Of a DNA stretch of 64,000 nucleotides, positions 37,851 through 64,000 are shown piece by piece. The translations under genes and the position numbers were made by a program. Position 1 is the first letter of the stretch. Each line of letters begins with the position of its first letter. Under the pieces are notes generated by a model, which was not told the DNA's origin, made no database searches, and was given only the letters and a program-made list of their open reading frames with translations. This DNA is from Leclercia adecarboxylata (lineage in GTDB: Bacteria; Pseudomonadota; Gammaproteobacteria; Enterobacterales; Enterobacteriaceae): NCBI RefSeq assembly GCF_023639785.1, contig NZ_CP098325.1, forward strand, positions 2,542,001-2,606,000, given 5' to 3'.

Positions 37851-38300
37851 CTAAATTGCGGAACGGGCGTCCAGGTACTGCTGTTGTTTAAGGTGGCGGA
37901 TAAGCACCCTGCCCTCGGGCATAAAATCCGTGCCGTAGCGTACGAGACCGATGCCTTTGAGTTCGGCATCAATAGCGTAGCGCAGTTCCCCAGGCTGGGT
38001 CTGATCAAGCATCACTACCGTGATTCTACTCAGACGGGGCTCATATTTCAGCAGCACCGTCGAGAGCGTGGATATTAACTGGTGCGCCGATCCCGGCATT
38101 CCCTGGAGAATTCTGGTCATATCCGGCAGACCGTAATCGGGGAGATGTGCCAGCGTACCGGCACGGGTGTTCAAAATACGCTGAATGTTATCTAACACTG
38201 ACAAAATGACCTGTTCTTCTTCGTTTACAACTTCAAGAGAAAGGTCACCTGTGAAATTTCCGGTAAGAACTTCGTATAGAGAAGGTGATTTATAGTTCAT
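37851..38300 (-). CDS. tssE: TssE, T6SS baseplate protein (gp25-like)
   Basis: 149 residues of the GpW/gp25 family: SPSLYEVLTGNF, VILSVLDNIQRILNTRAGTLAHLPDYGLPD, then the ELRYAIDAELKGIG beta region. It is a wedge component of the T6SS baseplate. It lies 23 bases upstream of the VasL-type gene and is followed on its 5' side by gene fragments, one of them a second, truncated tssE at about 39526-39676 that differs from it in many positions. Confidence 0.9.
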   Translation of the reverse strand: MNYKSPSLYEVLTGNFTGDLSLEVVNEEEQVILSVLDNIQRILNTRAGTLAHLPDYGLPDMTRILQGMPGSAHQLISTLSTVLLKYEPRLSRITVVMLDQTQPGELRYAIDAELKGIGLVRYGTDFMPEGRVLIRHLKQQQYLDARSAI

Positions 38301-38500
38301 TTATTGCTATCCAATATATTTCAGGCCAAATATTATTGAAGCTTCTGTGTTATGAATATGTCTTTTCCATAATTAACAATGAAATTACTGATGTATTCAT
38401 CCAGCACAGTATGAAAAAATTATTAAGCCCTCACATTGTGAATTTTTTGTCAAAGCTTACTTGCAAAAAAATCATGCTTACTATTCATGAATAATGTATA

Positions 38501-38880
38501 TGGAAGAAATGCCCCAGAGCATCAAGTGCAGACAGATATCACGGGCTTTACGAAAGGTCACCAGAGTGAGTATAACGCCCTCTTTAAGGTCGGTAATCAC
38601 ATCGCCCTGCGGCTCCAGCACCTGCCCGGGCGCGAGGTGTGAAGCGTTGCTGAACAGGTGGATACGGGCTGATTTGTTGAGCTCCCGCTCGTGGTGAAGC
38701 CGGGCATAGAACGCACCGGATTCCGTTTCCAGTTCAGAGCCGGCGTCATCACCCGCCTGAACTAAATGTCCCCCTTGAAAGGCTCACTCAGTGCTTCCCG
38801 GCCGCGAAAGCGCAGGACATCCGGCCTCACGGTACTGTCATTAATATCCAGAAAGTATCGGGTCTGTCCGTCAAAATAAT
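38501..38880 (-). pseudogene. vgrG remnant (two joined fragments)
   Basis: Two stretches align with the intact vgrG at 44298-46619. 38765-38880 matches its 5' region (PDVLRF...REALSEPF, TRYxLDIND). About 38503-38760 matches an internal part (FYARLHHERELNKSARIHLFSNASHL-type sequence, ALAPGQVLEPQGDVITDLKEG). The section between them is deleted and no complete frame remains. Similarity at the DNA level is high but not perfect, so the copy has aged or came from a related locus. Bases 38301-38500 beyond it are AT-rich and hold nothing recognisable. Confidence 0.85.
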
Positions 38881-39495
38881 ATCTTTGTAATCTTTAAAAA
38901 TTTTTCTGAAATACTTGCAACTTATAGGTTGCATAAATATCCAGACAACCTTTAAGGGTTGATTAACTGACGCAACCGCCTGATGACGGGATGCCTGATT
39001 GATTGCACTTTGATTGCCAGTCCACCAAGGTTTCTTCGAACTATCAACCCTGAAAAACTGATCATATCGCGCCTTCGCCTCCCAGAACTGACACAGCTTA
39101 TCTTTCCAGCCATCAAACGACACGCCACAGTACTTATATTCCTGTATCTGTTTTGTTTCGGGATTATAAAATGTGCCGCAGATACGCGTCTGGTAGCTGA
39201 TTGTAACCATACTCCAGCGCGAGCAACGCCTCACCCTCGGCATCACTTTCCCTTCAGGTGGGCAGTTTTCACAGGTCTTTTCATCCGTCTTCGCCTGTGC
39301 TCCTGCTCTGGTATCAACACCTTCATATGTCACTGTTTTTGAGTAGTCCATATCGTCTTCCCAGAAATCGCCGTGCGTCTCTGCACTGACCGCCATGGGA
39401 TTATTCAGCATCGAATCATAGGGTTTTCCCTGATAATCAAACCCTCCGGCCCCCTGACGCGATCCATTGCCTGAGTCAGGATATGTAGTGGTCAA
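38827..39495 (-). pseudogene. 5'-truncated second copy of the Tox-REase-5 nuclease gene
   Basis: The frame (222 residues) is nearly identical over about 150 residues to the intact nuclease at 42693-43463, from PDSGNGSRQGAGGFDYQ through the FDGW...WEAKARYDQF active-site region. It diverges at the C-terminus (SSKKPWWTGNQSA) and then runs on into vgrG remnant sequence in a wrong frame. The first 48 residues of the intact protein are missing, and it has no adjacent Imm52 gene of its own. Catalytic residues look intact, so toxicity if expressed cannot be ruled out. Confidence 0.8.
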
Positions 39496-39525
39496 GTAAT
39501 ATTGGCCACGGTTTTACTGTAAAAA

Positions 39526-39676
39526 TGGTACCGGCCCGAGCGTTCAAAATACCCTGGATATTATCCAGTACAGATAAAATGACCTGGTCTTCTTTGTTTA
39601 CAACTTCAAGGGGAAGATCCCCTGTAAAGTTGCCAGTAAGAATTTCGTATAAAGATGGTGATTTTCTATCGGGCAT
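39526..39676 (-). pseudogene. tssE 5' fragment
   Basis: About 50 codons beginning MPDRKSPSLYEILTGNF, aligned with TssE residues 1-50 (up to the ARAGT motif), but with many synonymous and a few amino-acid differences. Similarity ends abruptly at 39525, where unrelated bases (TTTTTACAGTAAAACCGTGG) and then the nuclease fragment follow. It is a scar of rearrangement, diverged enough that it may derive from a related T6SS locus. Confidence 0.85.
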
Positions 39677-39769
39677 TTTGACCTCAGGAATTTTGCTGAA
39701 ATGATCGACTTCTATTTTCAATAAATGTTGAAGAGTTCATGTATTGAACTCTATCATTACAATGCCTAA

Positions 39770-40201
39770 TCAATAAAATAATGAGTAAAAAACGCTCCAC
39801 CATTTTTTGTTTTTTACTGGGATTGTGTAACCTTCGGTAAAATCATTTACACCGTTAAGAGATAATGATTTTTCTGCTCCATCCGAATCGTCAGGGAAAA
39901 GTATATCATTTCCAAAGATAGTATATTGGTCTGTAAATCCAAATGGTGAACTTTGGCCTAAATAGTTGTTTTTTGAATCATACAACACCAAAAAAACATC
40001 ATCTTCGAAAGCCCATTGAAAAAATGATACTGGGGTAGTGGGCAAGACATAGTAAGCCACAGCTTTATATTTCCCATCCTCACTAATTTTTTCATGTGTT
40101 TTGTTGAAATCTCCAAAGAAGGCTGTGGGTGATAGAATCATCCACACTATTACAAATGGTGTGATTAATAGATATGTTTTCAACTTTTTTATTTTGCTCA
40201 T
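39770..40201 (-). CDS. Small membrane/periplasmic protein next to the DUF6402 gene, possible immunity protein (DUF6201-like)
   Basis: 143 residues with one N-terminal hydrophobic segment (TYLLITPFVIVWMILSPTAFF) that is a signal anchor or signal peptide, then a polar domain with DGKYKAVAYYVLPTTPVSFFQW. This opening resembles the DUF6201 proteins that accompany DUF6402 genes in enterobacterial T6SS loci; the match is from memory and tentative. It follows the DUF6402-type gene by 22 bases, and that toxin-like/partner order suggests immunity. AT-rich compared with the structural genes. Confidence 0.6.
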   Translation of the reverse strand: MSKIKKLKTYLLITPFVIVWMILSPTAFFGDFNKTHEKISEDGKYKAVAYYVLPTTPVSFFQWAFEDDVFLVLYDSKNNYLGQSSPFGFTDQYTIFGNDILFPDDSDGAEKSLSLNGVNDFTEGYTIPVKNKKWWSVFYSLFY

Positions 40202-40223
40202 AGAATCACCAAGCGGTCTTTAT

Positions 40224-41079
40224 CTAATGGTGGCATCCAAAATTAATCAGAAAAACTATATAGTCATTACCAGTACCACGCTTATTTTGCCATTTTCTGA
40301 AGCCGGAGTTAAATACCGGAACAAAGCCGGAAAACATTCGAACTAAAAGACCAAATGCACCTGATGTGTAAGATGACATATACGAAACTGTTTCTGCCTT
40401 ATTTAGAATTCGATCCTTTCCCCAAACACCCAAAGATTCCGGTATGTCGATGCTAAATTTATCATCATCTAGAAAGTCATATGTATCTTTAATATAAAAC
40501 CCTAAAGACTCAATGGTTAGCGTATGTTTGCTATTAAGCAGGCTAACTGTCCCTCGCACGCATACTTTTAAATTACAATTACCAATTGCGCCATACCAAT
40601 CATTTACTGTATCGAATTTACTGCCGATTATAAGAAAGTTGGCCTGAGCAGTTGCATCTAATTCTTTTACATTATCCGAAAAACCAAACTTAACCGTTTC
40701 GCCTTCTGAGATTTTTATTTTTGAGAAATGCTTTTTTAATATCTTTCTGCTATTTATGGTGTTCCACGTTGACCTAAGCTCATTGATGCCAGTTTTAACT
40801 TGAGAATACTGAATCGCCCATGCCATTTTCACGATGTTATCATTAACTTTAGAAGGGGGGATACTTCTTGCATCGCAGTTTAGAAGTTCAGTTTTTGATT
40901 CTTTGTTAAATGAGTAAGCAGGGGAAATACTGAACCAATGTTCCATTAGCTTGGGTGCCATTTCCCAGCCCATGTTTCTCATTGCATTGGGAATGCATAT
41001 CAATGTGGAAGAAATCAACACTGACCTTCTTTTCCTGCTGCTCCTGCTCTTTTGTTGTGGTTGTTGATGAAACTGCCAT
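40224..41079 (-). pseudogene. DUF6402-type T6SS-associated gene with a frameshift near its start
   Basis: The natural start appears to be the ATG at 41079, which overlaps the stop of the preceding vgrG remnant as TAATG and encodes MAVSSTTTTKEQEQQEKKVS then VDFFHID. After about 27 codons the frame must change to continue into IPNAMRNMGWEMAPKLMEHWFS and the remaining 250 residues. Four extra bases (ATGC near 40994-41000) would explain the break. The long part has the GFYIKDTYDF...ESLGVWG block I associate with DUF6402 proteins. As read, the product is truncated unless translation restarts internally. Confidence 0.7.
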
Positions 41080-41961
41080 TACCTTGTCCCCGCTCTGATC
41101 TGGAAAACATAGTTCAAATTTACATTTTCTTCGGTTTCTGAATTTATTGCATGCGTCAGAGCTGAATCAGTTCTTCCAACCACTGTACCGGTAGGTGTCT
41201 GCAATTGATATGCAAATTCCATATCTTCAGATCCTGTTAAAGAATCCAGGACCCTGAAACACGCTGTATTTGGACCGCATGATAAATTTGGTAATGGAGC
41301 GGGCATTCTAGCAATACCCTGACCCAGGGTACTGCTTCCCGCTGCCATCGTCCTTTTCGTCCTGCGCAGATACGTCGCCGTCGTGCCATACTCGATTATT
41401 CCGGCCTCCAGCCGCAGATAGCTCCCGCCACCAATCAGCGTGATACGTTTCTTCCCGGCAAACGAGATGTCACTGGCTGAGCTCAGCGTCAGCTTCTTCT
41501 CTGCAAACAGCCGCATTGCCGCATTCTGCGCCTGGACCTCCACCGGCCCTTCGCCGGACTTCAGGCTCAGTTGGCCGGTGCGGGCAAAGAGCCCCAGCGT
41601 CTCCCCGGCCAGCAGCGTCGTATTACCCATGGTGCCGGCGCTGATATCCTCCCCGGCGTTAATGGCAACGTTTTTTGCGGCTGTCAACTGCAGATGCTGG
41701 TTAAGCCGGTCGATTTACTTCAGCGTAGCGCTCATCCCAGCGGTTTCGTCTGCACTTCCGCGCTGACAAACAGCCCCTATGGCTCGCGGTACGACATGCG
41801 GACCTCAAACGGGTAGTTAAGCTGACTGTCGACCAGGATGTACACATCCATTTCGCGGGTGTCATCCCTCCCGTGCGCCAGTAAATCCCCACCTCGGACA
41901 GAATGCGCTGGATAAACTGCAAGTCCGTTTCCCGCCAATGGGTGATCAGTTCACGCTGCAA
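41079..41961 (-). pseudogene. Deleted vgrG copy with DUF2345 domain and variable tail
   Basis: 41701-41961 matches an N-terminal piece of vgrG (RELITHWRETDLQFIQRILS, then out of frame). 41079-41687 is an open 202-codon stretch with the C-terminal DUF2345 domain (AINAGEDISAGTMGNTTLLAGE) followed by a tail absent from the intact VgrG: PAPLPNLSCGPNTACFRVLD and on to NYVFQIRAGTR. The gp5-like centre is gone. The tail may be the adaptor that once loaded the DUF6402-type effector. Stop and next start overlap (TAATG). Confidence 0.85.
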
Positions 41962-41967
41962 GGCAGA

Positions 41968-42690
41968 TTAAAGCTCCGTCATCAACGGTAACAGACCAAG
42001 ATCCAGAAGCTTAATTTCTATATCGTTAGCTTTTCCGATATGTTCTTTGTTGTTACCATCAAATATTTCCTCAGTAGACACAATAATAGTGCCTTTCTGT
42101 TTCTCGCCATCCATTACTGGTACAACTCTGGCTGCTTCTGGAATTAATTCTGTTAAGAGTATGTGTGGAATGTATAACATCCAACCTACAGCCAGTCTTT
42201 CCGGGAAAACATTACGCTCCAACAGATTGTATCCATTTGAATCGATGCTCATATAAGAACAATCAAAAGACAAAGCCAGTTGGGATACGAATGATATAAA
42301 TCGACTAAATAGGTTTTCTTCATTATTTACAACTAAACTCACCTCTACTGAAGCTCTATTTCTCTCATCATAAAACATTTTTCTATAAGAGATGCCGCAG
42401 CTATGTTCATCATCATTGGCATCCCACACGCCATCAACAAACATTGGTATATTTTTCTTATATCGGCGTTCCCATTTCAAACGAGTATTATCTGTTATAT
42501 TTCCATTCTGAAACGCCACCTCATTTAGAGCTTGCTTTCTGGAGTGACCTGTTTCATACCAATCTTTTTTTACCTGAGATAAGTTGTTAATTTGCACTAT
42601 GATAAAAGTAAAATGCTCAATTATTTGTGAAAGCTGAATGTCAGAATTTTTGATGCGAAAATCAAAGTTTACTATAAAACGTGCACCCAT
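41968..42690 (-). CDS. Imm52-family immunity protein for the Tox-REase-5 nuclease
   Basis: 240 residues from the ATG at 42690, three bases after the nuclease stop, with GGGAG eight bases upstream; a start five codons earlier overlapping the nuclease is also possible. No signal peptide, as expected for protection against a cytoplasmic nuclease. Features such as YYETGHSRKQAL-like (read DWYETGHSRKQAL) and ERLAVGWMLYIPH fit the Imm52 family, which is known to pair with Tox-REase-5 toxins. AT-rich. The family call is from memory of the toxin-immunity pairing. Confidence 0.75.
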   Translation of the reverse strand: MGARFIVNFDFRIKNSDIQLSQIIEHFTFIIVQINNLSQVKKDWYETGHSRKQALNEVAFQNGNITDNTRLKWERRYKKNIPMFVDGVWDANDDEHSCGISYRKMFYDERNRASVEVSLVVNNEENLFSRFISFVSQLALSFDCSYMSIDSNGYNLLERNVFPERLAVGWMLYIPHILLTELIPEAARVVPVMDGEKQKGTIIVSTEEIFDGNNKEHIGKANDIEIKLLDLGLLPLMTEL

Positions 42691-42692
42691 AA

Positions 42693-43463
42693 TCAAGGCT
42701 CCCATCTAACAATAATATCTTTAAATCTTTTGAAGATTTTCGAAAAGTAGTAGCAACTCATCGGCTGCATAAAAACCCAGACGACTTTTAATGGATTATT
42801 AACTGTCGCAACAGCTTGATGACGCCCGGCTTGATTAATTGCACTGCTATCCCCTCGCCACCAATCTTTCTTTGTTCCATCAACCCTGAAAAACTGATCA
42901 TACCGCGCCTTCGCCTCCCAGAACTGACACAGCTTATCTTTCCAGCCATCAAACGACACGCCACAGTACTTATATTCCTGTATCTGTTTTGTTTCGGGAT
43001 TATAAAATGTGCCGCAGATACGCGTCTGGTAGCTGATTGTAACCATACTCCAGCGCGAGCAACGCCTCACCATCGGCATCACTTTCCCTTCCGGTGGGCA
43101 GTTTTCACAGGTTTTTTCATCCGTCTTCGCCTGTGCTCCTGCTCTGGTATCAACACCTTCATAGGTCACTGTTTCTGAGTAGTCCATATCGTCTTCCCAG
43201 AAATCGCCGTGCGTCTCTGCACTGACCGCCATGGGATCATTCAGCATCGAATCATAGGGTTTTCCCTGATAATCAAACCCTCCGGCCCCCTGACGCGATC
43301 CATTGCCTGAGTCAGGATAAAACATATTCTCATCTTCCCAGCCTCCATGGCTGCCTCCTGCTCCGGGAAAGGTTGACGATCCGCTTGAACTGCCTGCCAT
43401 ACCGACACTTCCGGTTGCAGCCCCGCCCATTCCCCCTGATATCACCGGTGGGATCATGACCAT
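42693..43463 (-). CDS. T6SS effector with Tox-REase-5 nuclease domain (TseT-like)
   Basis: 256 residues. A glycine/serine-rich N-terminus (residues 1-45) precedes the toxin domain. The restriction-endonuclase-fold core is D172 in FDGWKD and E183-A-K185 in FWEAKARYDQFF; a structural CENCPPEG motif lies at about 119-126. Predicted DNA-cutting effector delivered into competitor cells. The start overlaps the previous stop as TAATG, and the gene order chaperone, small partner, nuclease, Imm52 parallels tecT, co-tecT, tseT and tsiT of Pseudomonas aeruginosa. A truncated second copy lies at 38827-39495. Confidence 0.85.
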   Translation of the reverse strand: MVMIPPVISGGMGGAATGSVGMAGSSSGSSTFPGAGGSHGGWEDENMFYPDSGNGSRQGAGGFDYQGKPYDSMLNDPMAVSAETHGDFWEDDMDYSETVTYEGVDTRAGAQAKTDEKTCENCPPEGKVMPMVRRCSRWSMVTISYQTRICGTFYNPETKQIQEYKYCGVSFDGWKDKLCQFWEAKARYDQFFRVDGTKKDWWRGDSSAINQAGRHQAVATVNNPLKVVWVFMQPMSCYYFSKIFKRFKDIIVRWEP

Positions 43464-43807
43464 TACAGTCCCCTCCTTTCCCTGTTAATCATCACATGCT
43501 TATAATCTTCAACTCTCTGATCCACTGAATAACCGTTTGGCGTTCTCAGCCATTTATCCACTTCGGGCTTCAGATAAAAACCAGGCCAGAACGCTTCCAG
43601 GAATAAAAAGTCTCGCTTCACATTCTTCTCTTTCAGCGCAAGGGTATTGGCATAATCCAGTGCTTTTCTCAGGCGAACATGGAACGTGTCATCCGGTTCG
43701 TTAATCCCCGGAAATTTCTTCTTCAGTCTTTGCGCGGTATCGCGAACAAAATCATCATTTTCCATTTTGTCCACACCGGCACACTGCTCTTCAGACAGCT
43801 TCAGCAT
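43463..43807 (-). CDS. Small partner of the DUF4123 chaperone (co-TecT-like position)
   Basis: 114 residues, no signal peptide, charged and helical (VRDTAQRLKKKFPG, LRKALDYANTLALKEKN). It overlaps the chaperone gene by 7 bases upstream and the nuclease gene (TAATG) downstream, so all three are translated together. In P. aeruginosa a small co-chaperone gene holds the same place between tecT and tseT; I infer a similar role in effector loading. I see no family motif that proves it. Confidence 0.7.
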   Translation of the reverse strand: MLKLSEEQCAGVDKMENDDFVRDTAQRLKKKFPGINEPDDTFHVRLRKALDYANTLALKEKNVKRDFLFLEAFWPGFYLKPEVDKWLRTPNGYSVDQRVEDYKHVMINRERRGL

Positions 43808-44301
43808 ATGAATTCCCTTTGTTTAAATGACCAGACTTTCCCGTCCACCGTTGTCAGCCATTCACGCATTAAACCTGTCATTTCCCTGTGCTGCTTGCTG
43901 TTCAGCATCGTTCCCAGGCGGAACTGAACACGCGGGTCCTGGAAACGCAGTAAAGCAGCCCTTCCATCCGGAAGCCCTGCGTTCATATATGCCTGTAAAT
44001 GTGCGACCAGCTTCTGCGGTCCGAAGCCTGACACCACCCAGGACACGCCGGGTAGTGCCATTTCCAGGGCCTCCAGTTGTTCTCTCATTTCCATTGCTGC
44101 ATTCATACTGATTAACAACGGTCCGGCAAAGGCAATGCGCGAATCCGGCCAGGTATTAAATAAAGGAAAGACAACATCCGGTTTGATTTTAAGTTCATAG
44201 CCAGTAAAACGCTCATATTGCAGTCCATCCACCAGAGCAAATACTGAGACGTCTGATGAATGAATCAGATGCTGAATTGCAAGACTAAAGCTGTGGTTCA
44301 T
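43801..44301 (-). CDS. DUF4123 effector-loading chaperone
   Basis: 166 residues from MNHSFSLAIQHLI; the ATG overlaps the vgrG stop as ATGA. DUF4123 hallmarks are the FALVDGLQYE opening, an AGPLLISM segment and the later LLRFQDPRVQFRLGTML block. These chaperones bind an effector and place it on the VgrG or PAAR spike, then leave before secretion. Position between vgrG and the nuclease gene fits. In-frame codons upstream overlap vgrG and lack family support. Confidence 0.85.
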   Translation of the reverse strand: MNHSFSLAIQHLIHSSDVSVFALVDGLQYERFTGYELKIKPDVVFPLFNTWPDSRIAFAGPLLISMNAAMEMREQLEALEMALPGVSWVVSGFGPQKLVAHLQAYMNAGLPDGRAALLRFQDPRVQFRLGTMLNSKQHREMTGLMREWLTTVDGKVWSFKQREFIC

Positions 44302-46619
44302 GACTCGCTCCTGATAACAAAGGTGTCGCCATTCATCGCGGCCTTCATCAGACAACTGAGGCAAATCCCTCCGCCCGTCACGGCCTTAACCGGCATACTC
44401 GCCGCACCCGCTGCCATCATCCTTTTCGTCCTGCGTATATACGTCGCCGTCGTACCATACTCGACCTTCCCCGCCTCCAGCCGCAGGTAGCTCCCGCCAC
44501 CAATCAGGGTGATACGTTTCTTTCCGGCAAAAGAGATGTTACTCGCCGAGCTCAGTGTCATTTTCTTCTCAGCGAACAGACGCATACTGGCCTTCTGCGC
44601 CTGCACTTCTACCGGGCCCTCTCCGGATTTGACGCTCAGCTGGCCGGTCCGCGCAAACAGCCCCAGCTTCTCCCCGGCCAGCAGCGTCGTATTGCCCATG
44701 GTGCCTGTGCTAATATCGCCCCCGGCATTAATGGCCACGTTTTTTGTGGCTGTCATCTGCAGGTGCTCCCCGCTGGTCATCGCCATCCCTTCCGGTGCGG
44801 ACATCAGCAGCGCTTCATTGAGGGGCTTCAGCCGTTGCTCAAACATCGCTATCTGGCTGCCCACATCCGCCTTCAGGGCCTGCGCCTGTTCTGCTGCCAT
44901 CTCCAGCTGCTGCAGCTGCTGATTAAGTCTGTCGATTTCCTTCAGCGCCGCATCCATGTCCAGCGCCTCACCCTGGGCTTTCGCCTGCGCATCCGCAGCG
45001 ACAAAGAGTCCCTTCCCTGCTCTCAGGGTTCCCCACTCATCGGTGCGCAGCTCAGTGCCTTTACCGCGAAGCTGCCCCTTGCTGTTTACCAGGTTCCCGC
45101 TGTTGAGCTGCGTCTTACTGTATTCCGTGGCGAGTTTGATGTGCTCTTCACCACGCCTGTCTTCCATCCGCAGCTTGTTGTTCGCCGGGGTTCTGAGTAC
45201 GTTGCGGGTGTGGTTGTCGCGGGCCACGTGGTCGGGATGTTCAGCGTCATGCAGGGCATACGCGATGTAAGGCAGGTCAATATCACCATTGCTGTAGGCT
45301 ATCGCCACTTCGGTGCCGTCGGTGAGCGGCGTATGCCAGCCGTATGTATTACCAGAGTACGGCTTCGCCATCCGCAGCCACAGGTAGCCGTAGCCCGGCT
45401 CTGTCCCCTCCCGGTCGAAGTCCGGCTTCACCCGGTAGCGTCCCTGTTCATCCAGATGAGCGTGGATATCATTCCTCTGCCGGCTCTCGACCCGGGCCGG
45501 TAGCGTGCCGTGAATTTCCGGACGCGGGATTTCCGCCGGGCGGTAACAGTAACGTTCGATGTAGGGCATCCCCCAGAGCGACACATGCAGACGGGAATCA
45601 CGGGCTCCCCGGAAGGTCACAAGCGTAAGGATAACGCCCTCTTTCAGGTCAGCAATGACATCGCCCTGCGGCTCCAGCACCTGCCCGGGCGCGAGGTGTG
45701 AAGCGTTGCTGAACAGGTGGATGCGGACTGATTTATTGAGCTCCCGCTCGTGGTGAAGCCGGGCGTAGAATGCGCCGGATTCGGTTTCCGGCTCCGGGCT
45801 GGCGTCATCGCCTGCGTCACGGTAAGGCGCTGCGTAGCGGTAATGCTCCCCGGTGGTGACCGCATTACTGCGCACGCTGACCGTCGCATCCATCGGCGTG
45901 GTGGCGGTCCGGTAGTTGTAATCCCGCGTGGCAACGGTGCCGGGGGCAATCCTGTGCCAGGTCCGCACGTCCCAGACCGATTCTGCCGCGCCGTCAAACA
46001 GGCCCGATGGCTCGCGGTACGGCAGCCGCACGTCAAACCGGTAGTTAAGCTGGCTGTCGGCCAGGATGTACGTATCCAGACCGCGCGCGTCGTCCATCTC
46101 CGTGCGCCAGTAAATCCCCACCTCAGACAGAATGCGCCGGATGAACTGTAAATCCGTTTCCCGCCACTGGGTGATAATTTCACGCGGCGGGTAGGTGCGC
46201 TCCAGCCTGAATTCAAAATCAGCTCCCTCCAGGCCGTGCCGGCGTAACACCTGCTCCACCACCTCCGGCACGGACTGGTTCTGAAATACGGCGCACTGCC
46301 GGGTATATCCCAGCAGCGCCAGGCGCGATCTGAGCGTAAGCCGGTAATGGGACTGATCCTTTGAGGTCGAAAGCCATTCCAGGCGGGTCACAATGCCGTG
46401 AACACTTTTACCGCTCCGCATCCGGAAAGAGGCATATTTCATCAGCACCTGTTCTGGGGGAATGTTTGCCTGCAGGGAGGTGAACTCGATGTCCCAACTG
46501 AACGGCTCGCTCAGTGCTTCCCTGCCGTAAAAGCGCAGGACATCCGGCCTCACGGTACTGTCATTAATATCCAGAGAGTATCGGGTCTGTCCGTTAAAAA
46601 GCGCTGACCAGTTATCCAT
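44298..46619 (-). CDS. vgrG: VgrG (TssI) spike protein
   Basis: 773 residues. N-terminal gp27-like domain (1 to about 330, including WRETDLQFIRRILSEVGIYW), gp5-like OB domain (about 370-460, PYSGNTYGWHTPLTDGTEVA), a helical insert around 575-615 (MDAALKEIDRLNQQLQQLEM), and a DUF2345 C-terminal needle with a short tail ending NGDTFVIRSES. It forms the trimeric tip of the T6SS needle. No enzymatic extension is fused. Followed by coupled DUF4123/nuclease/immunity genes; two broken vgrG copies lie downstream. Confidence 0.95.
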   Translation of the reverse strand: MDNWSALFNGQTRYSLDINDSTVRPDVLRFYGREALSEPFSWDIEFTSLQANIPPEQVLMKYASFRMRSGKSVHGIVTRLEWLSTSKDQSHYRLTLRSRLALLGYTRQCAVFQNQSVPEVVEQVLRRHGLEGADFEFRLERTYPPREIITQWRETDLQFIRRILSEVGIYWRTEMDDARGLDTYILADSQLNYRFDVRLPYREPSGLFDGAAESVWDVRTWHRIAPGTVATRDYNYRTATTPMDATVSVRSNAVTTGEHYRYAAPYRDAGDDASPEPETESGAFYARLHHERELNKSVRIHLFSNASHLAPGQVLEPQGDVIADLKEGVILTLVTFRGARDSRLHVSLWGMPYIERYCYRPAEIPRPEIHGTLPARVESRQRNDIHAHLDEQGRYRVKPDFDREGTEPGYGYLWLRMAKPYSGNTYGWHTPLTDGTEVAIAYSNGDIDLPYIAYALHDAEHPDHVARDNHTRNVLRTPANNKLRMEDRRGEEHIKLATEYSKTQLNSGNLVNSKGQLRGKGTELRTDEWGTLRAGKGLFVAADAQAKAQGEALDMDAALKEIDRLNQQLQQLEMAAEQAQALKADVGSQIAMFEQRLKPLNEALLMSAPEGMAMTSGEHLQMTATKNVAINAGGDISTGTMGNTTLLAGEKLGLFARTGQLSVKSGEGPVEVQAQKASMRLFAEKKMTLSSASNISFAGKKRITLIGGGSYLRLEAGKVEYGTTATYIRRTKRMMAAGAASMPVKAVTGGGICLSCLMKAAMNGDTFVIRSES

Positions 46620-56296: not shown

Positions 56297-56560
56297 TCAG
56301 GCAACCTTTGCAGGAGCAAAAGAACTGATCAATGTGCAGCCACAACCACATTTATGACCGTGAAAAGCAACAGGGATCCCGTTATCAAGATAATCAGGGT
56401 TACCTTCTATGATAGTTGTCGGACCATGTCCCGGTATAGGGCAGGAAACCCTGTCACCTTTACGCGCCACGCCAATCCCCCCAAATATCATGGTGCCAGA
56501 GCAGGTCATCACTGAACCGCCGTGAGTTGTTTTGTCGCCTTTTCGAATAATCTGCAACAT
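56297..56560 (-). CDS. PAAR-domain spike-tip protein
   Basis: 87 residues covering a single PAAR domain: IRKGDKTTHGGSVMTCSGTM, ARKGDRVSCPIPGHGP and VAFHGHKCGCGC, with the His and Cys residues that bind zinc at the cone base. It sharpens the VgrG tip and can carry effectors. No fused toxin. GGAG lies 7 bases before the ATG. Next gene starts two bases after the stop. Confidence 0.92.
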   Translation of the reverse strand: MLQIIRKGDKTTHGGSVMTCSGTMIFGGIGVARKGDRVSCPIPGHGPTTIIEGNPDYLDNGIPVAFHGHKCGCGCTLISSFAPAKVA

Positions 56561-56666: not shown

Positions 56667-57626
56667 TTACTGAATTAGCTTCATATAAAAGGTGAAAGGA
56701 TATTTTTTATTCCCTGCTGCATTTGACCATACTCCTTTAAACTGCCCTTTCTCCAACAGACCATCAAACGTCTCCATTCCCTCAGGGACAGAGGCTGACA
56801 GCGTCAACCTATCACCGTCCCGACGACCAGTTACATTTATTTTTTTCTTCATTTTTTCATAAAAATAAAAACCAGAAGCATTATTATCATTATATTCGAG
56901 GTGCAAACCCATTCTAAATTTATCGTTCAACCTCCCGATATAATTAACTGAATCAAAGTCTATATCACAACTACTTAAACAGCCAATATCATTCAAATTT
57001 ATAGCATCAATATCTTTACTATCAAGAGCAATCACAGAAAGCTGATTTTTTTCAACACCATCAGTAATTTGTGACAGATAAAATAAGATGTCATTTCCGG
57101 TATATTTATTTGGGCCGTATGATAACTTATTTTGATTGACACATAATTCTGAAGCTACTTGTAATAGTAAGCCATCTTTTTTTTCAGGCATTTTCCCTGC
57201 TGATGTATCACATTCCTTGCCAGACTATTTCTTCACGTTGTTATTAAAATCAATAGAACTCTCAATGTAATAATAGTTAACAGGTGAAAGGTGTTTATTG
57301 TGATACTTAAACGAAATAAACTCTATAGCTTTGGTGCTAACAAGATACACTTTTGAAAAAACATCTCTTTCTCCATACTTTTGCAAAGAGACACTTTCTG
57401 TTGTTTCATTCATATCAAAATAAGGGAATATGTTTTTCCCATTTTCAGTATCTGCCAATTCAACTTTGTAAGATACATCATCAACATTTCGTTCCATTTT
57501 CAAGAAAACATCGCAAGAAATACTTTCCTTTAGAGAACAGTTCGTGACATCTAAGTCAGCGTTTGCATGTACATAAAAGGAACATACTGATAAAAGAAAA
57601 CACCACACATTACTAAATTGTTTCAT
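56667..57626 (-). pseudogene. Periplasmic immunity-type gene split by an in-frame amber codon
   Basis: Two open stretches lie in the same frame: 57626-57228 (133 codons; signal peptide VWCFLLSVCSFYVHANA) and 57224-56667, separated only by TAG at 57227-57225. The second part, SGKECDTSAGKMPEKKDG onward through GVWSNAAGNKKYPFTFYMK, has cysteine pairs but no signal of its own. This supports a single former protein of about 319 residues. The start overlaps the preceding hydrolase by 14 bases, the usual immunity position. Alternatively the first part alone is the immunity protein. AT-rich; I do not recognise either domain. Confidence 0.65.
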
Positions 57627-58587
57627 TTATTATCACTTCAAATAATTCAGCATAATCCTTAAACTCATCAGCCTTATCAGGAATACCATGTCGATAGCCA
57701 TTGATGATTAACCTTGCATTAAAGTAATCCTTTTTACCTGATCCCAAATAAATATCTAATGTATGCCCGGCCCTGAAACCACCATCTTTCCTACCTATCA
57801 TCATAATTGAAACAGCTGTGCTGATCTCAAGACAGAGATCTGGACTGGTAACAATGTCTATACCTGTAATGGATTTAAATTTCTCATAGGAAATTTTCCA
57901 TGTTAACTGAACTAAACCACGTCCGCGATATTTATACCCATCACCAATATTTGTATTGTGGTTCAACATAGCTCTTTGTCGGTTAGATGCCGTTGGACCT
58001 GAACCATAATCGACTTCCGTCTTGCCATATGAAATATTTTCACTGATTGGTTTAAAGAACAACCTTTGCCTGTAGTCATAAGACTCTATTCTTATTTGTA
58101 GCAAGCATATACGAGAAAAATTCTTCATTAAAATCGTCAAAATAATTATAATACTGCTTCTTCATTTCATTTAGAAGCTTTTGCAATGACTCTTCAGAGT
58201 CCTGAGTCAATGCTGGGATGGTTATTTTGTTTCCTCGATCATAGAACCCAAAAACTGCAGTATGTTTTTCTTTATACTTTTGAATAAATTTTTCAATGTC
58301 AAACCATTTAGATGAACTGTTCATCGCCTCCAAAAATACTATAGGATGCATATGCCACGGTTCCGGCCCCAGTGCCACATCCTTTTCGGACACTGCCTTC
58401 ATCCATGTCATCTTATCCAGAAACTCTTCCAGATACGTTTTCCACAACGGTGCATCCGTGGTTAACGTATCCAGGTATGTATTCCAGAGCGGATCATCCT
58501 TGCCGTAGTACCATTCACTGGCGTGTTTTGCAATTACATGGTATAAGCGGTCACGGTAAGAGATATTATGGACCACCTGAAGATAAT
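57613..58587 (-). pseudogene. Third peptidoglycan-hydrolase cassette, 5'-truncated and frameshifted
   Basis: The first part (58576-58076) repeats a short piece of the shared trunk (YRDRLYHVIAKHASEWYYGK, LDKMTWMKAVSEKDVAL, PWHMHPIVFLEA) and then a new tip. At about 58080-58090 the frame breaks; the next frame continues with ESYDYRQRLFFKPISENISY, SGPTASNRQRAML and GDGYKYRGRGLVQLTW, typical of GH19/chitinase-like lysozymes. Removing AG from the AGAG at the junction gives ATNKNESYDY, close to the usual ATAKHESYDY active-site start. No upstream trunk or proper start is present. Confidence 0.8.
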
Positions 58588-58599
58588 TGAGAAATAAGC

Positions 58600-59077
58600 C
58601 TATGGAAAATTAAACCCCTCCTCATTTACATAAGGAATGTCAACTATATAATCACTTACAACACTATCACTTCTATATGAGTTCGGCAAACAATCACTAG
58701 ATTGAATAATCTTTCCATTTTTTTTGATATCAAACGACATTGTGTATTCATTTTTTTCAGAACCTTCGATTACATCAATGACATAACTGTATTTGCCGCG
58801 TTTGAAGCCATAATAAGTAACACCCATCTTGCTATCTTTGGTGCGTCTCAGTTTATTCTCTTCGTTGAAAACAACTTTTAACTCTATTTTACTATCCCTT
58901 TTAAAACCATAATTAATTTCTTTTGTAATATTATCAATGAGGAATGAAACTTCTTTACCTCCCTCTCCAGGTAATGAGCAAGTAATGATTTTAGTCACAT
59001 TCTGTTCAACTGCCAAAGCGCCTGCCGACAAAAAAAACAAAGCCCCCCCCCGCTAAAAACATCTTATGTTTTCTCAT
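58600..59077 (-). pseudogene. Periplasmic immunity-type gene put out of frame by a 9-C/G tract
   Basis: The ATG at 59077 overlaps the preceding hydrolase stop as ATGA and encodes MRKHKMFLAG. The run of nine G on the coding strand (C at 59043-59051) then shifts the frame. With eight G the peptide would read MRKHKMFLAGGALFFLSAGA followed by LA and VEQNVTK, a textbook signal peptide joined to the 58600 frame. The mature part (about 135 residues, with YYGFKRGKYSYVIDVIEG and a Cys pair) is a likely periplasmic inhibitor of the GH19 hydrolase. I do not recognise the family. Confidence 0.7.
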
Positions 59078-60648
59078 TGTAATACCGTTTCGCATAATGA
59101 ATAAGCCTCTTGTCGCTCTGCCAATCCCATATCCCCACCGTTTACTCTTTTTGTAACAGCAACAACATCACTATAACCGTTGCCTTGATCTAATGAATAG
59201 ACCTCGTAATGCAACCAAAACCATAAAGCGCTTCGAATAGCATAAGGCATTGTATTTATTGTTTCAGGATCCGAAACGGTGTCAGGTGCTTCATCATGCC
59301 AATGATCATGATACCCCTCCATAAACCCATTATATTTTTCATATCCAGTAACTTGAATTAGCCCTAGCCCTCTAAAATTATAGCCATCATCAGGATTGCT
59401 CTGTCTATTCCCATTCAATCTTAAGTAATGCTTACGGCCTATAGCTTGTTCATCAGCACGACGAATTATTCTTCCAGCAGAATTCTTCAGATAGCCATCA
59501 GTTTCTGACTCCGTTGGATGTTCTCGGTAATATCGGCTAAACGACCTTAAAGTTGCTGGTGAAAATTGAAACCCTTCCGTTTTTCCTTTCATTTGAGGAC
59601 CAACTTCCCCTTTAATTTGGGAGAAGAAATGTCGTAATCTCGTTGAGGTATCTAACTTAAACTCCTCCAACCTCCCTTGTAGTTCAACAACGACTGTATT
59701 TAAATTATCATCAGAAGCTTGTGGGAAAATAGTTTTTAACTGAGTATAAGTAACACCATCACTAGTACTAACAGCCTTAAGAAAAACAATAGGATGCATA
59801 TGCCACGGATCCGGCCCCATTATCACGCCCTTTTCCGACACAGCCTTCATCCATGTCATCTTATCCAGAAACGCTTCCAGGTACGTTTTCCATAACGGTG
59901 CGTCCGTGGTTAATGTATCCAGGTAGTTCTTCCAGAGCGAGTCATCCTTGCCGTAATACCATTCACTGGCGTGCTTCGCTATCACACGGTACAGATGGTC
60001 GCGATACGACACATTATGAACCGCCTGAAGATACTCCTGCTCCGAGTAATGTCCGTCCTGGTTACTGTCTATCAACTCCAGCAGGCGTTTATAGTTATAC
60101 TTGTTCAGCGCGTGAGTGGTCCGGGATTCCTCCTGTGCTGCTTTATACAACTGCTCCAGAATACCCTTCACCACGTTATTCGGTTGTTTTATCCCATCAA
60201 TCAGGTCAAAACTCTCTGGTGTCTTATCCAGCGTAACAAAGCCAAGCTCACCAAGCGCATACTGCGACACTTTCTGAACACTGGCTGCGGCCAGCCAGCC
60301 ACCTTCAGGCCGTATCTGATAATATGCCGCATCCCTATTACTGGTCAGCGTCTTCCCCTCAGCATCAGCGCCAGGGACTTTTGCCAGTGTCAGAATACCC
60401 GCGGCCCTTGTTTTACGACTGCCCGCAACCATTCCCCGCTCACCCTTTTCAAACAACGGTGTATCGGTTTTCCAGGTCAGATAAACAGGCGCATCCTCTT
60501 CCGCATGTCCGGGATTAGTGATGAACTTCTCCATATCATCCATGCTCAGGCACTCTATGTGTACCTGGTAGCGCGAGCGTTTGCCATTTTCTTCTGGTAG
60601 CTGATAAAAACCCATATGCCCGAGACTGTCTCCCGCACTGACAGGCAC
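59074..60648 (-). CDS. Second peptidoglycan-hydrolase cassette: shared trunk with GH19 tip, 5'-truncated
   Basis: 524 codons. Residues 1-290 repeat residues 88-377 of the hydrolase at 61724-64000, almost identically, including the EF-hand loop. From there a different tip follows: LRHFFSQIKGEVGPQMKG and NFRGLGLIQVTGYEKYN are GH19-type lysozyme features, with the Glu of KGEVG a likely acid. The N-terminal part before PVSAGDSLGHMG is missing; the only start is a GTG without a ribosome site, after an in-frame TAG. Probably a silent cassette that becomes active only if joined to a full trunk. Confidence 0.8.
   Translation of the reverse strand: MPVSAGDSLGHMGFYQLPEENGKRSRYQVHIECLSMDDMEKFITNPGHAEEDAPVYLTWKTDTPLFEKGERGMVAGSRKTRAAGILTLAKVPGADAEGKTLTSNRDAAYYQIRPEGGWLAAASVQKVSQYALGELGFVTLDKTPESFDLIDGIKQPNNVVKGILEQLYKAAQEESRTTHALNKYNYKRLLELIDSNQDGHYSEQEYLQAVHNVSYRDHLYRVIAKHASEWYYGKDDSLWKNYLDTLTTDAPLWKTYLEAFLDKMTWMKAVSEKGVIMGPDPWHMHPIVFLKAVSTSDGVTYTQLKTIFPQASDDNLNTVVVELQGRLEEFKLDTSTRLRHFFSQIKGEVGPQMKGKTEGFQFSPATLRSFSRYYREHPTESETDGYLKNSAGRIIRRADEQAIGRKHYLRLNGNRQSNPDDGYNFRGLGLIQVTGYEKYNGFMEGYHDHWHDEAPDTVSDPETINTMPYAIRSALWFWLHYEVYSLDQGNGYSDVVAVTKRVNGGDMGLAERQEAYSLCETVLQ
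59796..60645. repeat. Trunk direct repeat, downstream copy
   Basis: Pairs with 62839-63688, offset 3043 bases, same orientation. About 0.73 kb (59852-60579) appears identical to the other copy by reading; the flanks carry scattered differences. It encodes the shared trunk of two T6SS hydrolases. Confidence 0.9.
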
Positions 60649-60860
60649 ATCAGTATATTCATAACACTATCCGGATAAGCATATTTCAGCCCATGTCACC
60701 ATCTGCCATCATTAGTATATACCCTTATGTTGTACTAATCAGATGCATCGCCCTCTTCCTCTGAGAATGGCCTCTGTATTTATTGATATTAATAAAAACA
60801 ACGAATTATCTTATTAATAAAACCAGATATCAGGCGTTTTTTGTGACACGACTAAGGCAA

Positions 60861-61697
60861 CTAATATTGTGTATCCGATTCGATTACTACGTCAGCACTA
60901 TTATTTTTAGACTTAACGGAATAGCGGACAGACTCATTTTCTTGTTCAATTATTATCTCGAGCGTGTTGCGATCAGTCCATTGATAAATGATATATCCCC
61001 CATCAACAGGGTATTTAATATTTTTACTCGGCAACTTTTCCTTTAATGCATGCTGATAATGACTGAGCGCACGAATATTGGAATATACTTCAGCTATAGA
61101 TTTATTACTAAACTGACAGCTATATTTACTTCTTCCATCGTAGGCCACGCCTTCCGCAACGTCTTTACAGTATTGCCAAAAATCAATTTTATCTTTATTC
61201 CCCGAAGTTACATTCCCAGTTTTTTTCTTCATGAACACCACATAGTCTTGTTCGGAGAAAAACAAATTCCCGTTAGCTTCTATGAGTTCACTGTACGGTT
61301 CGGGACATTCTTCACCAGGCCTGAGAGATGTCAGGACAACAACATCATCCGTCAGAGGCATTTCTTCCTGTGAAAATAGTGCCTTATACATTGCCACCGT
61401 AGCTTTAGAGTAAAAATAAGAAAGCAATGTTTTGTTTATTCTGACGAAGTCGATAGAGCAGATATTTCCTTTTTCCAGTAGGGAATTCTGAATGGTGAGA
61501 ATGTTTGAATCAGTGACGATCTCGACCTGTCGAAACTGCGTTGTCAGATTGCGAACCCTGTCCGCATCCGTCATTCCTAAGACAGTAGAACTGGAGACTT
61601 TATCAAAAACCCATACATCTTTTGCCTCACTCACCTGGATGCTAGCGGTAAATGATAAAACAAAGAGGATGTAAATCCATAATAGCTTTTTATTCAC
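60861..61697 (-). CDS. Exported immunity-type protein for the M23/GH24 hydrolase
   Basis: 278 residues from a GTG with AAGGA 8 bases upstream; the signal peptide reads KKLLWIYILFVLSFTASIQV then SEA. A TTG ten codons earlier, overlapping the hydrolase stop, is another possible start. The mature protein is polar with four or five cysteines and no known motif. Position directly after a T6SS cell-wall hydrolase and periplasmic targeting suggest immunity. AT-rich. The next 212 bases (60649-60860) hold nothing I can name. Confidence 0.7.
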   Translation of the reverse strand: MNKKLLWIYILFVLSFTASIQVSEAKDVWVFDKVSSSTVLGMTDADRVRNLTTQFRQVEIVTDSNILTIQNSLLEKGNICSIDFVRINKTLLSYFYSKATVAMYKALFSQEEMPLTDDVVVLTSLRPGEECPEPYSELIEANGNLFFSEQDYVVFMKKKTGNVTSGNKDKIDFWQYCKDVAEGVAYDGRSKYSCQFSNKSIAEVYSNIRALSHYQHALKEKLPSKNIKYPVDGGYIIYQWTDRNTLEIIIEQENESVRYSVKSKNNSADVVIESDTQY

Positions 61698-61723
61698 AAT
61701 AGCATTCCTTGTTTTACATTCTG

Positions 61724-64000
61724 TCAATGAGAAGAATCATAAACATTATTATTGAATAAATCCCACTCTTTCCTCCGGCGCGTCACCAGGCCAGTTTTAC
61801 CGTCATTGGTAATATCGAGAAATTCGTCCGCTGCACCAGCATAATCTCCGCTATTAAGTTTCGATTTGAGTAAAGGTGCTTTGCGTAATGAACCGAGATT
61901 GAACAAAAGGCTTACCAACGCATCAAACTCGTACTGATAGAGATTCACCATTACTGAACTCTTAAGTTCATTTACATATGTGGGCAGTCTTTCTTCAAAA
62001 AGTTCATCAGCGCGGGCACGCGTGATGCCGTCTTTGAATTCGTCTGACAGAACGATATCCTCACACTTGCGCCTTGCAATTAAGTGACCATAACCAATGG
62101 TGCAATAGCCCTCTGAATCATTATAAGGTTTTGACTTAAATGACTCCCATCCTTTGATAAACGCTTTTCCTTCATCTGAAACCTGTAACTGGTTTATATC
62201 AACCCGGTTTCTATTTTTGACATTTTCACTGAAAGTGTTCTCGTAACCTTCGCGCAATATTTCCAACGGATCACGTAAGTCACTTCGTCGTCTGTAAGGG
62301 AGATTTGATGTATTGTTTGGAGGCGATTCAGACTCATTTCCAGGATAGTATTCAAAATGTAGCATATAAACGGTCTGCCCCGCTATAATGCAGGGATGCT
62401 TGTTTGTTTCTGGAGAAATCATTAAACCTGTTTTAGCTATTATACTACCTTGACTCACTTTATCTCCTACATTAACAGTAATACTATTAGGATCAACCTC
62501 TCCATAACGTGCAAAAAAACGTCTGTTATCATTCGTTTTATGCTCGATTGTTATTTGTGATGTCCCCATATAATAAGCTGTAATGCTTTTGACTGTTCCG
62601 TTACAAACAGCAACAATTTCTGTCGAAGGTTCGGTATATAAATCACGAGCAGCATGTTTACGACTCCCTCCGCTTCGATTTCGACCAAATATGGCCTGAG
62701 AGGCATTGCTGTCACTTAAAAATGCAGCCCAGTAATAATTTTTCCAGACTCCATTAATATCATTCTTCGGTTTGACTTTAAGCGGAAATATAATCAATTT
62801 CTGATCGTTTGAGACAGCATCTAAAAACACTACCGGATGCATATGCCACGGATCCGGCCCCAGTACCACACCCTTTTCCGACACTGCCTTCATCCATGTC
62901 ATCTTATCCAGAAACGCTTCCAGGTACGTTTTCCATAACGGTGCGTCCGTGGTTAATGTATCCAGGTAGTTCTTCCAGAGCGAGTCATCCTTGCCGTAAT
63001 ACCATTCACTGGCGTGCTTCGCTATCACACGGTACAGATGGTCGCGATACGACACATTATGAACCGCCTGAAGATACTCCTGCTCCGAGTAATGTCCGTC
63101 CTGGTTACTGTCTATCAACTCCAGCAGGCGTTTATAGTTATACTTGTTCAGCGCGTGAGTGGTCCGGGATTCCTCCTGTGCTGCTTTATACAACTGCTCC
63201 AGAATACCCTTCACCACGTTATTCGGTTGTTTTATCCCATCAATCAGGTCAAAACTCTCTGGTGTCTTATCCAGCGTAACAAAGCCAAGCTCACCAAGCG
63301 CATACTGCGACACTTTCTGAACACTGGCTGCGGCCAGCCAGCCACCTTCAGGCCGTATCTGATAATATGCCGCATCCCTATTACTGGTCAGCGTCTTCCC
63401 CTCAGCATCAGCGCCAGGGACTTTTGCCAGTGTCAGAATACCCGCGGCCCTTGTTTTACGACTGCCCGCAACCATTCCCCGCTCACCCTTTTCAAACAAC
63501 GGTGTATCGGTTTTCCAGGTCAGATAAACAGGCGCATCCTCTTCCGCATGTCCGGGATTAGTGATGAACTTCTCCATATCATCCATGCTCAGGCACTCTA
63601 TGTGTACCTGGTAGCGCGAGCGTTTCCCGTTTTCTTCCGGTAGCTGATAAAAACCCATATGCCCGAGACTGTCTCCGGCATTGACCGGTACAGGCGCTGA
63701 AGGTACATACACATCATTAAAAACGGGTTCACTACCGGATGCTGCCGGTGCAACCGACGTCAGACTGTCGCCGTCTGACACCACCCATACCCGGTCGCCC
63801 TTCTTCGGGCTATGCTTGAGATTATCCTTATCTTGCCCCAGGGTTACCAGACTGAAGGTTCTTGCAGCATCGCCATCATTCTTACCCGGACGGGTAACCT
63901 GCTGCAAAGTGTTACCGGGTTCGTAAGAAAGCGGGAAACCTGCCACCAGGTTGCCTGCATTTTTATATTGCAGTACATCGTCACGGCTCAGATAGTATGA
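61724..64000 (-). CDS. T6SS cell-wall hydrolase: trunk with EF-hand, M23 and GH24 lysozyme domains (5' end beyond window)
   Basis: The frame is open to the right edge (758 codons seen; residue numbers below count from the GTG at 63946). A trunk of about 375 residues carries an EF-hand loop, D279-x-N-x-D-G-x-Y-S-x-x-E290. Residues 420-540 resemble an M23 endopeptidase (H431-x3-D435), but the second motif reads M528-L-H530-F-E rather than HxH. Residues 590-735 are a T4-like GH24 lysozyme with E601, D610 and T616 at the same spacing as T4 E11/D20/T26. Predicted to cut peptidoglycan of target cells. First member of the tandem cassettes; the immunity-type gene follows at once. Confidence 0.85.
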   Translation of the reverse strand, partial: SYYLSRDDVLQYKNAGNLVAGFPLSYEPGNTLQQVTRPGKNDGDAARTFSLVTLGQDKDNLKHSPKKGDRVWVVSDGDSLTSVAPAASGSEPVFNDVYVPSAPVPVNAGDSLGHMGFYQLPEENGKRSRYQVHIECLSMDDMEKFITNPGHAEEDAPVYLTWKTDTPLFEKGERGMVAGSRKTRAAGILTLAKVPGADAEGKTLTSNRDAAYYQIRPEGGWLAAASVQKVSQYALGELGFVTLDKTPESFDLIDGIKQPNNVVKGILEQLYKAAQEESRTTHALNKYNYKRLLELIDSNQDGHYSEQEYLQAVHNVSYRDHLYRVIAKHASEWYYGKDDSLWKNYLDTLTTDAPLWKTYLEAFLDKMTWMKAVSEKGVVLGPDPWHMHPVVFLDAVSNDQKLIIFPLKVKPKNDINGVWKNYYWAAFLSDSNASQAIFGRNRSGGSRKHAARDLYTEPSTEIVAVCNGTVKSITAYYMGTSQITIEHKTNDNRRFFARYGEVDPNSITVNVGDKVSQGSIIAKTGLMISPETNKHPCIIAGQTVYMLHFEYYPGNESESPPNNTSNLPYRRRSDLRDPLEILREGYENTFSENVKNRNRVDINQLQVSDEGKAFIKGWESFKSKPYNDSEGYCTIGYGHLIARRKCEDIVLSDEFKDGITRARADELFEERLPTYVNELKSSVMVNLYQYEFDALVSLLFNLGSLRKAPLLKSKLNSGDYAGAADEFLDITNDGKTGLVTRRRKEWDLFNNNVYDSSH
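62839..63688. repeat. Trunk direct repeat, upstream copy
   Basis: Partner of 59796-60645. It lies inside the longer hydrolase gene and covers the trunk up to the point where the M23/GH24 tip begins. Confidence 0.9.

Follow-up and report, generated by a model that had tools for sequence, protein, structure and literature searches.

Near the right end of a 64,000-nucleotide stretch of the Leclercia adecarboxylata genome (assembly GCF_023639785.1, 4.74 Mb in two contigs; contig NZ_CP098325.1, positions 2,542,001 to 2,606,000; hereafter the window), a type VI secretion system (T6SS) locus carries a row of cell-wall hydrolase modules that share one trunk sequence and end in different tips. On the minus strand, which carries all parts of this locus, the order is hcp, clpV, and vgrG (named from gene order in annotated E. 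coli loci), a front effector with its immunity-type gene imm1, two 5'-truncated modules termed orphan 2 (with imm2) and orphan 3 (with imm3), and a PAAR gene that forms the right border of the effector slot (56297-56560; Pfam E 1.8e-25). The first-pass annotation of this DNA had proposed tandem trunk copies with different tips, headed by a hydrolase with an M23 and GH24 tip that runs off the right edge of the window, and both points were confirmed: a repeat search of the window recovered three trunk copies, and because orphans 2 and 3 are also collinear with single modules of other genomes, the tandem layout is not a product of chance.

The front effector is cut by the window edge (trunk, 62792-64000; tip 1, 61724-62791) and is intact once read past it. 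The complete gene (L003:7724-10819, L003 being the window's locus in our numbering) lies 15 bp behind vgrG and encodes 1031 aa, of which residues 1-676 form the trunk and the remainder tip 1, with an M23 peptidase domain (Pfam E 3.6e-8) and a phage-lysozyme-type (GH24) domain (E 5.5e-28); the Pfam search covered the 758 aa of the protein inside the window. The gene imm1 (60861-61727; start GTG at 61697 or TTG at 61727) overlaps or adjoins the front effector stop and encodes a hydrophobic, signal-peptide-like N-terminus; a structure model of its product (pLDDT 77) had no PDB match at E 0.001 or better. It is followed by a spacer (60650-60860) whose first 121 bp are 97% identical behind the same cassette in Citrobacter sedlakii. 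Sequence searches of Pfam, NCBIfam, and PDB left the trunk and immunity proteins unnamed, with all matches for them below cut-off, and the front protein matched no CdiA or Rhs family in Pfam (the same 758 aa) or NCBIfam.

Orphan 2 (59074-60648) had been described as a trunk-plus-GH19 copy lacking its 5' end, which is an accurate description. Its trunk fragment (59771-60649) begins at trunk residue 376 and shares 879 bp with the front trunk at 97.8% DNA identity, after which a different tip follows (tip 2, 59074-59770). The frame is open through this tip, with a possible GTG start. Pfam gave no match for orphan 2, and the GH19-like label comes from a profile of ten tips, which matched PDB entries 8xcl (E 1.1e-32), 4ok7 (E 6.8e-30), and the class I chitinase 4tx7 (E 1.8e-7). 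Within the trunk fragment, a run of 740 bp (59843-60582) is identical to 62886-63625 of the front trunk and is flanked by diverged sequence (7 differences in 67 columns before, 30 in 105 after). Because its ends are diverged, the run looks like a recent conversion tract or the product of a recent recombination; it shows that recombination between front and orphan 2 is possible, yet it is no proof of tip swapping. The ATG of imm2 (58600-59077) overlaps the orphan 2 stop, and its signal-peptide start leaves the frame of the body (58600-59040) at a tract of nine G (59043-59051) that is absent from the three relatives compared (L044, L046, and L052). Phase variation at this tract was considered and not adopted, given that the tract occurs in one genome only and may be an assembly error. 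The large contig holds three tracts of nine or more G, the one at imm2 included; at the end of the small contig, three 9-G tracts lie within about 100 bases (G000:C2:41902-42004).

For orphan 3, earlier read as a shorter trunk-plus-GH19-like copy, the trunk fragment stands (58326-58585, from trunk residue 581; 260 bp at 86% DNA identity to the front trunk), while the rest needs amendment. The GH19 match of tip 3 (57613-58325) reaches 20.8 bits in Pfam, under the curated cut-off of 25.5, and the tip is broken because it is split between two frames, 57613-58140 and 58076-58576, the change falling between 58140 and 58076; it is open on a full trunk in genome G038 (L109). What had been taken for imm3 (57225-57626) and a small gene adjoining it (56667-57191) form a single immunity gene of 319 codons (56667-57626; 318-319 codons in relatives) split by one in-frame TAG at 57225-57227. 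Two separate genes were ruled out, as the gene is whole in two relatives, G038 (L109) and Salmonella diarizonae (L106). The further proposal that each stop is joined by a distinct small gene with a signal peptide holds for imm1, with the start type and position given above; in imm2 the start and the body lie in different frames, and the former imm3 is part of one split gene.

The trunk fits a WHIX-type delivery domain, which the cited parts of Fridman et al. 2025 (PMC12135965) present as a domain for T6SS secretion, joined to exchangeable C-termini that mostly act on the cell wall; we make this assignment because the motif and the layout match those in that paper. The front protein carries the WHxxxH motif as WHGGIH at residues 47-52, and a second conserved trunk block spans residues 365-670 approximately, ending in WHMHP[IV]xFL in most aligned sequences, where the tips diverge. 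Both blocks are conserved and co-occur in 62 open front genes, as seen in alignments rather than against the WHIX profile. At the level of sequence, cell-wall-type domains at the C-terminus are followed by a signal-peptide-type immunity gene, and vgrG and PAAR are neighbours, a neighbourhood from which T6SS secretion and VgrG loading are predicted. The WHIX effectors of that paper have the same N-terminal WHxxxH, C-terminal cell-wall hydrolase, downstream signal-peptide gene, and vgrG/PAAR neighbours, with tips that include chitinase-like and lysozyme-like kinds, and a trunk in two parts to which the two blocks seen here may correspond. They differ in that effectors and tips are described in those parts, not arrays of displaced tips on truncated trunks, and 163 proteins are counted there as 'no domain/truncated' without further comment. 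One chitinase-like WHIX protein listed there is WP_061356769.1, and WP_061356770.1 and WP_061356771.1 are annotated directly behind the GH19 front gene in E. coli loci L037 and L040; the consecutive accessions are a suggestive link, by number only, between this front gene and the WHIX list.

All three tips of the window are found on full-length trunks in other enterobacteria, each beside a related immunity gene, so that the tips are exchangeable, as had been proposed. Tip 1 with imm1 occurs in E. coli (L034 and L035), C. sedlakii (L041), and Trabulsiella (L042), with identities of 88-96% for the tip and 78-94% for imm1; more distant carriers are Yersinia vastinensis (L047; tips 68 and 51%) and G046 (L112; tip 68%, trunk about 30%). 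Tip 2 with imm2 is present in Pseudenterobacter timonensis (L044; tip 90%, imm2 77%) and Ewingella (L046), as well as in Intestinirhabdus (L052), where the trunk is cut by a contig end, and tip 3 with imm3 is present in G038 (L109). Collinearity at the DNA level runs through tip and immunity gene between orphan 2 and the front module of P. timonensis (84%, 2005 bp) and between orphan 3 and the front module of G038 (87%, 1927 bp), and the front cassette of the window is likewise collinear with L034, L041, and L042. Orphan 2 also matches a full-length protein of Cronobacter muytjensii (896 aa) at 94% identity across 99% of the orphan, and close relatives were listed from Klebsiella, Enterobacter ludwigii, and Cronobacter. 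The first-pass annotation had suggested searching related strains for the GH19 tip fused to a full trunk and for differing numbers of cassettes; both were found, the former for example in P. timonensis and C. muytjensii. Its comparison with the orphan-module layout of contact-dependent inhibition (CDI) and Rhs toxins is likewise supported, given that 5'-truncated copies with immunity genes lie downstream of a full-length gene and their tips occur on full-length genes elsewhere.

Three E. coli genomes preserve the states on either side of a displacement step. A close match was detected in 18 of 5426 E. coli genomes, 7 of which were opened; the front classes of the 18, assigned from annotation and match pattern, were GH108 in 10, the GH19 group in 6 (one named only hypothetical protein), and M23/GH24 in 2. 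Strain SY038 (L034) has an M23/GH24 cassette in front and a GH108 module behind it. The orphan GH108 module is collinear with the front module of strain GZ2408P (L036; 98.1% over 3012 bp), the front cassette is collinear with that of strain SW070919 (L035; 97.7% over 3794 bp), and about 535 bp of trunk are present in duplicate. SY038 thus corresponds to a GH108-tip strain into which a cassette of tip 1 and its immunity gene was inserted with the old module left behind, and the three genomes represent the donor-type, before, and after states. The SY038 front gene is interrupted by an IS66-type element. SW070919 carries a 115-bp trunk relic at the same junction as SY038, and probably once had an orphan there that has since been lost.

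Comparison of the window with C. sedlakii indicates that the tip 1 cassette moves as a unit between lineages. The vgrG and trunk sequences of the two are 77-95% identical (trunk average about 87%), and identity rises to 95-99% from the trunk end through tip 1 and imm1 (about 97% for tip 1, immunity gene, and spacer), with synonymous divergence (dS) of 0.04 for tip 1 and 0.08 for imm1. The shared spacer extends 121 bp past imm1, after which the sequences diverge, and C. sedlakii carries a different GH19 orphan (80% identical to an E. coli front tip). No such jump in identity at the cassette was seen between the window and Trabulsiella, which would point to an older exchange or to none.

We next consider 49 loci in which vgrG, a front trunk, and PAAR follow one another in that order. 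They comprise the seven E. coli strains, a pattern scan of one genome per species, and chosen relatives, and so do not form a random sample. One or more 5'-truncated trunk fragments lay between the front gene and PAAR in 17 of these loci and upstream of the front gene in none; the 17 exclude L099, whose fragment is its own interrupted front. From 46 fragments found, 7 were left out as broken or interrupted front genes or lookalike pieces, and 39 were analysed. Dropping 7 that lie at a contig end or close to one (one of the four in L077, one of the two in each of L091 and L095, and those in L078, L100, L103, and L105) and 2 with their own 5' piece upstream (L074 and L108) left 30, among them the second fragment of L095, the left edge of which is uncertain. 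In 18 of the 30, the tip covers half or more of a front tip found at some other locus, in 12 of them at 60% identity or more; of these 18, 11 keep an open frame over at least 150 residues beyond the trunk, and the other 7 do not. Clustering sorted the 62 open front tips into 15 groups. In Hafnia alvei (L077), one contig carries four consecutive modules, the first at the contig end, and all four frames close fewer than 150 residues past the trunk. Broken frames were counted in 7 of 18 orphans and 7 of 69 front genes (Fisher p 0.007), which is only a hint that orphans are broken more often, the broken fronts having been picked by eye and the loci not being independent.

We consider it highly probable (about 0.86) that the locus is a stack of displaced modules, newest in front, built by cassette insertion. 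The slot between vgrG and PAAR would hold one working cargo effector, composed of a WHIX-type delivery trunk and a cell-wall hydrolase tip. New cassettes of tip and immunity gene would be acquired from other strains or species, with homologous recombination in the conserved 3' half of the trunk as the route of entry, and the resident tip and its immunity gene would be pushed downstream with a 5'-truncated piece of trunk rather than replaced. Repeated insertions would give a stack in which modules grow older from front to back. Because displaced pieces are missing the first half of the WHIX domain, they are predicted not to load onto the spike, and they decay. Decay is observed in the window in tip 3, imm3, and the start of imm2, and in C. 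sedlakii, where the orphan immunity gene is broken into three open reading frames.

A second homology arm may contribute to the growth of such stacks. The junction between imm1 and a following trunk fragment, near residue 488, is common to E. coli L034 and L035 and Trabulsiella L042, but what lies behind it differs: L034 has a GH108 tip, L042 has a GH19-like tip, and L035 retains no more than a relic. Lelliottia L067 and Pantoea L071 have another such junction in common (96% over 161 bp), which likewise precedes different tips; collinearity between these two loci extends over 3243 bp, as far as the point where the trunk of the orphan ends. Among the 26 junctions tested, spanning matches besides these two shared ones were found only for L090 and the fragment of L095, both of which fit trunk homology that continues upstream of the assigned edge. 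The absence of other clearly shared junctions would be expected at sites where a tail has newly arisen, but also if cassettes seldom make use of their tails. We give roughly even odds to the possibility that cassettes carry their own second homology arm, namely the trunk fragment behind the immunity gene left from an earlier displacement, and that stacks ratchet across genera in this way. With such a tail, homologous recombination at its two ends could place a cassette into any WHIX trunk, always before the resident tip and never replacing it. Although several fragments begin near residues 488-503, we do not claim a single breakpoint hot spot in that interval, because one inherited junction is common to three of them and another to two.

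Several points weigh against the displacement reading. Expression and delivery are predictions from sequence, and the WHIX assignment draws on a motif and layout taken from a paper. Two full-length effectors of the tip 1 kind stand in tandem in Y. vastinensis (L047:5998-13096), and displacement does not predict whole copies. The identical 740-bp run could also reflect a very recent local duplication. The tip frame of orphan 2 is intact, and the ratio of nonsynonymous to synonymous divergence (dN/dS) between it and the front copy is 0.12; this would also agree with some continued use, although the greater part of this history may predate displacement. Across orphans, dN/dS was 0.11-0.15 for tips and 0.15-0.25 for immunity genes, and because these values are low, orphans were under selection for most of their history, a period that may likewise predate displacement. 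The first-pass annotation had inferred a working store of alternative tips, kept for reloading onto the trunk through recombination between front and orphan trunks as in Salmonella rhs. The trunk shared by the front gene and orphan 2, with its 740-bp identical run, exceeds, in both length and similarity, the 522 bp at 95% that, in the cited part of Koskiniemi et al. 2014 (PMC3967940), recombined in Salmonella rhs and sufficed to load an orphan onto the main gene, and orphan 2 is open through its tip. Tip 2 is however the only orphan tip of the window with an open frame, the start of imm2 is out of frame, and the tip and immunity gene of orphan 3 are broken; a return of tip 2, though conceivable, would delete imm1 and depend on the damaged imm2. 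Reloading is known for Rhs, whereas no orphan returned to the front was noticed among our loci, in which no dedicated search for one was made, and cassettes placed before old ones were seen. The store did not hold up as stated, and we regard it as unlikely.

More can be said for the explanation, to us still a tentative one, that stacks are kept because the immunity proteins of the orphans give protection from kin in which the old tip is still in use. The E. coli genomes with a GH19-group front (all four opened of the six found, L037-L040) carry an extra lone immunity-type gene that is 73% identical to a gene 31 bp behind the front effector in Erwinia psidii (L086). In addition, the E. coli GH108 immunity protein (L034:16589-17383; L036:11559-12353) looks like a fusion of two immunity domains, with an N-terminal part that is found directly behind the front gene in L045, L080, and L102 and an imm2-like C-terminal part. 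Set against this are the damage to both orphan immunity genes in the window and the C. sedlakii orphan, whose tip frame is open while its immunity gene is in three pieces; the loci seen fit neither a rule by which toxins decay and immunity stays nor a working store. It seems very improbable that the orphans act as split effectors, expressed separately and delivered in trans. WHIX proteins without a C-terminal domain can precede a cell-wall enzyme gene, according to the cited parts of PMC12135965, and the possible GTG start of orphan 2 would suit such a role, but the window orphans are without trunk residues 1-375 and 1-580, WHxxxH included, 12 of the 30 fragments keep no tip that covers half of any known front tip, and among the 18 that do, 7 are out of frame. 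Hardly credible, finally, is local tandem duplication with divergence, or an assembly artefact: the front and orphan 2 trunks are very similar and small lesions could be sequencing errors, yet the tips and immunity genes of the three modules differ from one another and match different foreign front modules, which rules out local duplication of whole modules, and the layout recurs in the 17 loci from many assemblies. As a separate observation, E. coli strain MEW has a run of 44 T (L037:12789), possibly an assembly artefact, directly upstream of its extra immunity-type gene.

The layout resembles known systems in different respects, compared here with the cited parts of each source. Orphan cdiA-CT/cdiI and rhs-CT/rhsI arrays (Poole et al. 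2011, PMC3150448; Koskiniemi et al. 2014, PMC3967940) likewise consist of a main gene followed by 5'-truncated C-terminal pieces and immunity genes, with homology to the main gene and with orphans fused to full-length genes elsewhere; here the protein family is another one, the tips are cell-wall hydrolases, and divergence begins behind WHMHP rather than VENN. Displacement of T6SS effector modules in V. cholerae (Kirchberger et al. 2017, PMC5361080) shares the new module in front, the old one pushed back, and horizontal transfer, and intermediate states of such arrays are present here in other strains (E. coli L034, L035, and L036). It is mainly immunity genes that remain there, whereas here tips and a trunk piece often remain, and illegitimate joining at each step is assumed there, whereas here the shared trunk tail offers a second homology arm. 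The tip 2 profile matches the C-terminal lysozyme of Aeromonas dhakensis TseP, the structure of which is 8xcl (Wang et al. 2025, PMC11893102), and the trunk here has, by eye, an EF-hand-like stretch such as is predicted for TseP; that source describes an effector with two activities and, in its cited part, no module stack. Lone immunity genes are reported in a survey of Enterobacter (PMC10763514), and the cited part of a Salmonella survey (PMC12994826) does not use the word WHIX. No treatment of displaced WHIX tips was found by title or abstract start in a literature search that covered few subscription papers and no preprints; the word WHIX turned up in three of the papers covered. The orphan-module layout is known for CDI and Rhs toxins and displacement for the V. 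cholerae T6SS; for WHIX effectors they are apparently new.

Two observations lie outside this slot. In the other effector slot of the same T6SS (window 38155-46619), a whole vgrG (44298-46619) is accompanied by a partial second vgrG copy and by a partial second copy of a Tox-REase-5 effector region with DUF4123 and Imm52 (names from E. coli annotation), the repeats being 81-90% identical, and this slot also looks displaced. Genes with a related trunk (29-40% identity) are also found on plasmid records of 4-9 kb from Enterobacter and E. coli (NZ_CP074164 to NZ_CP074167, NZ_CP074180, CP057065, and CP057986), odd carriers for such effectors, and some are annotated with pesticin- or glucosaminidase-type tips.

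For annotation, these loci carry the warning that a fragment labelled 'glycoside hydrolase' and lying behind vgrG can be a displaced tip. The donor-type, before, and after set within one species, E. coli, makes the displacement step readable base by base, and the shared junctions between immunity gene and trunk suggest that stacks may grow without a fresh illegitimate join each time. Displacement may also be a source of two-domain immunity proteins, with fused forms such as the GH108 immunity protein arising in this way. Together, these results extend the orphan-module layout from CDI and Rhs toxins to the WHIX-type cell-wall effectors of enterobacteria.

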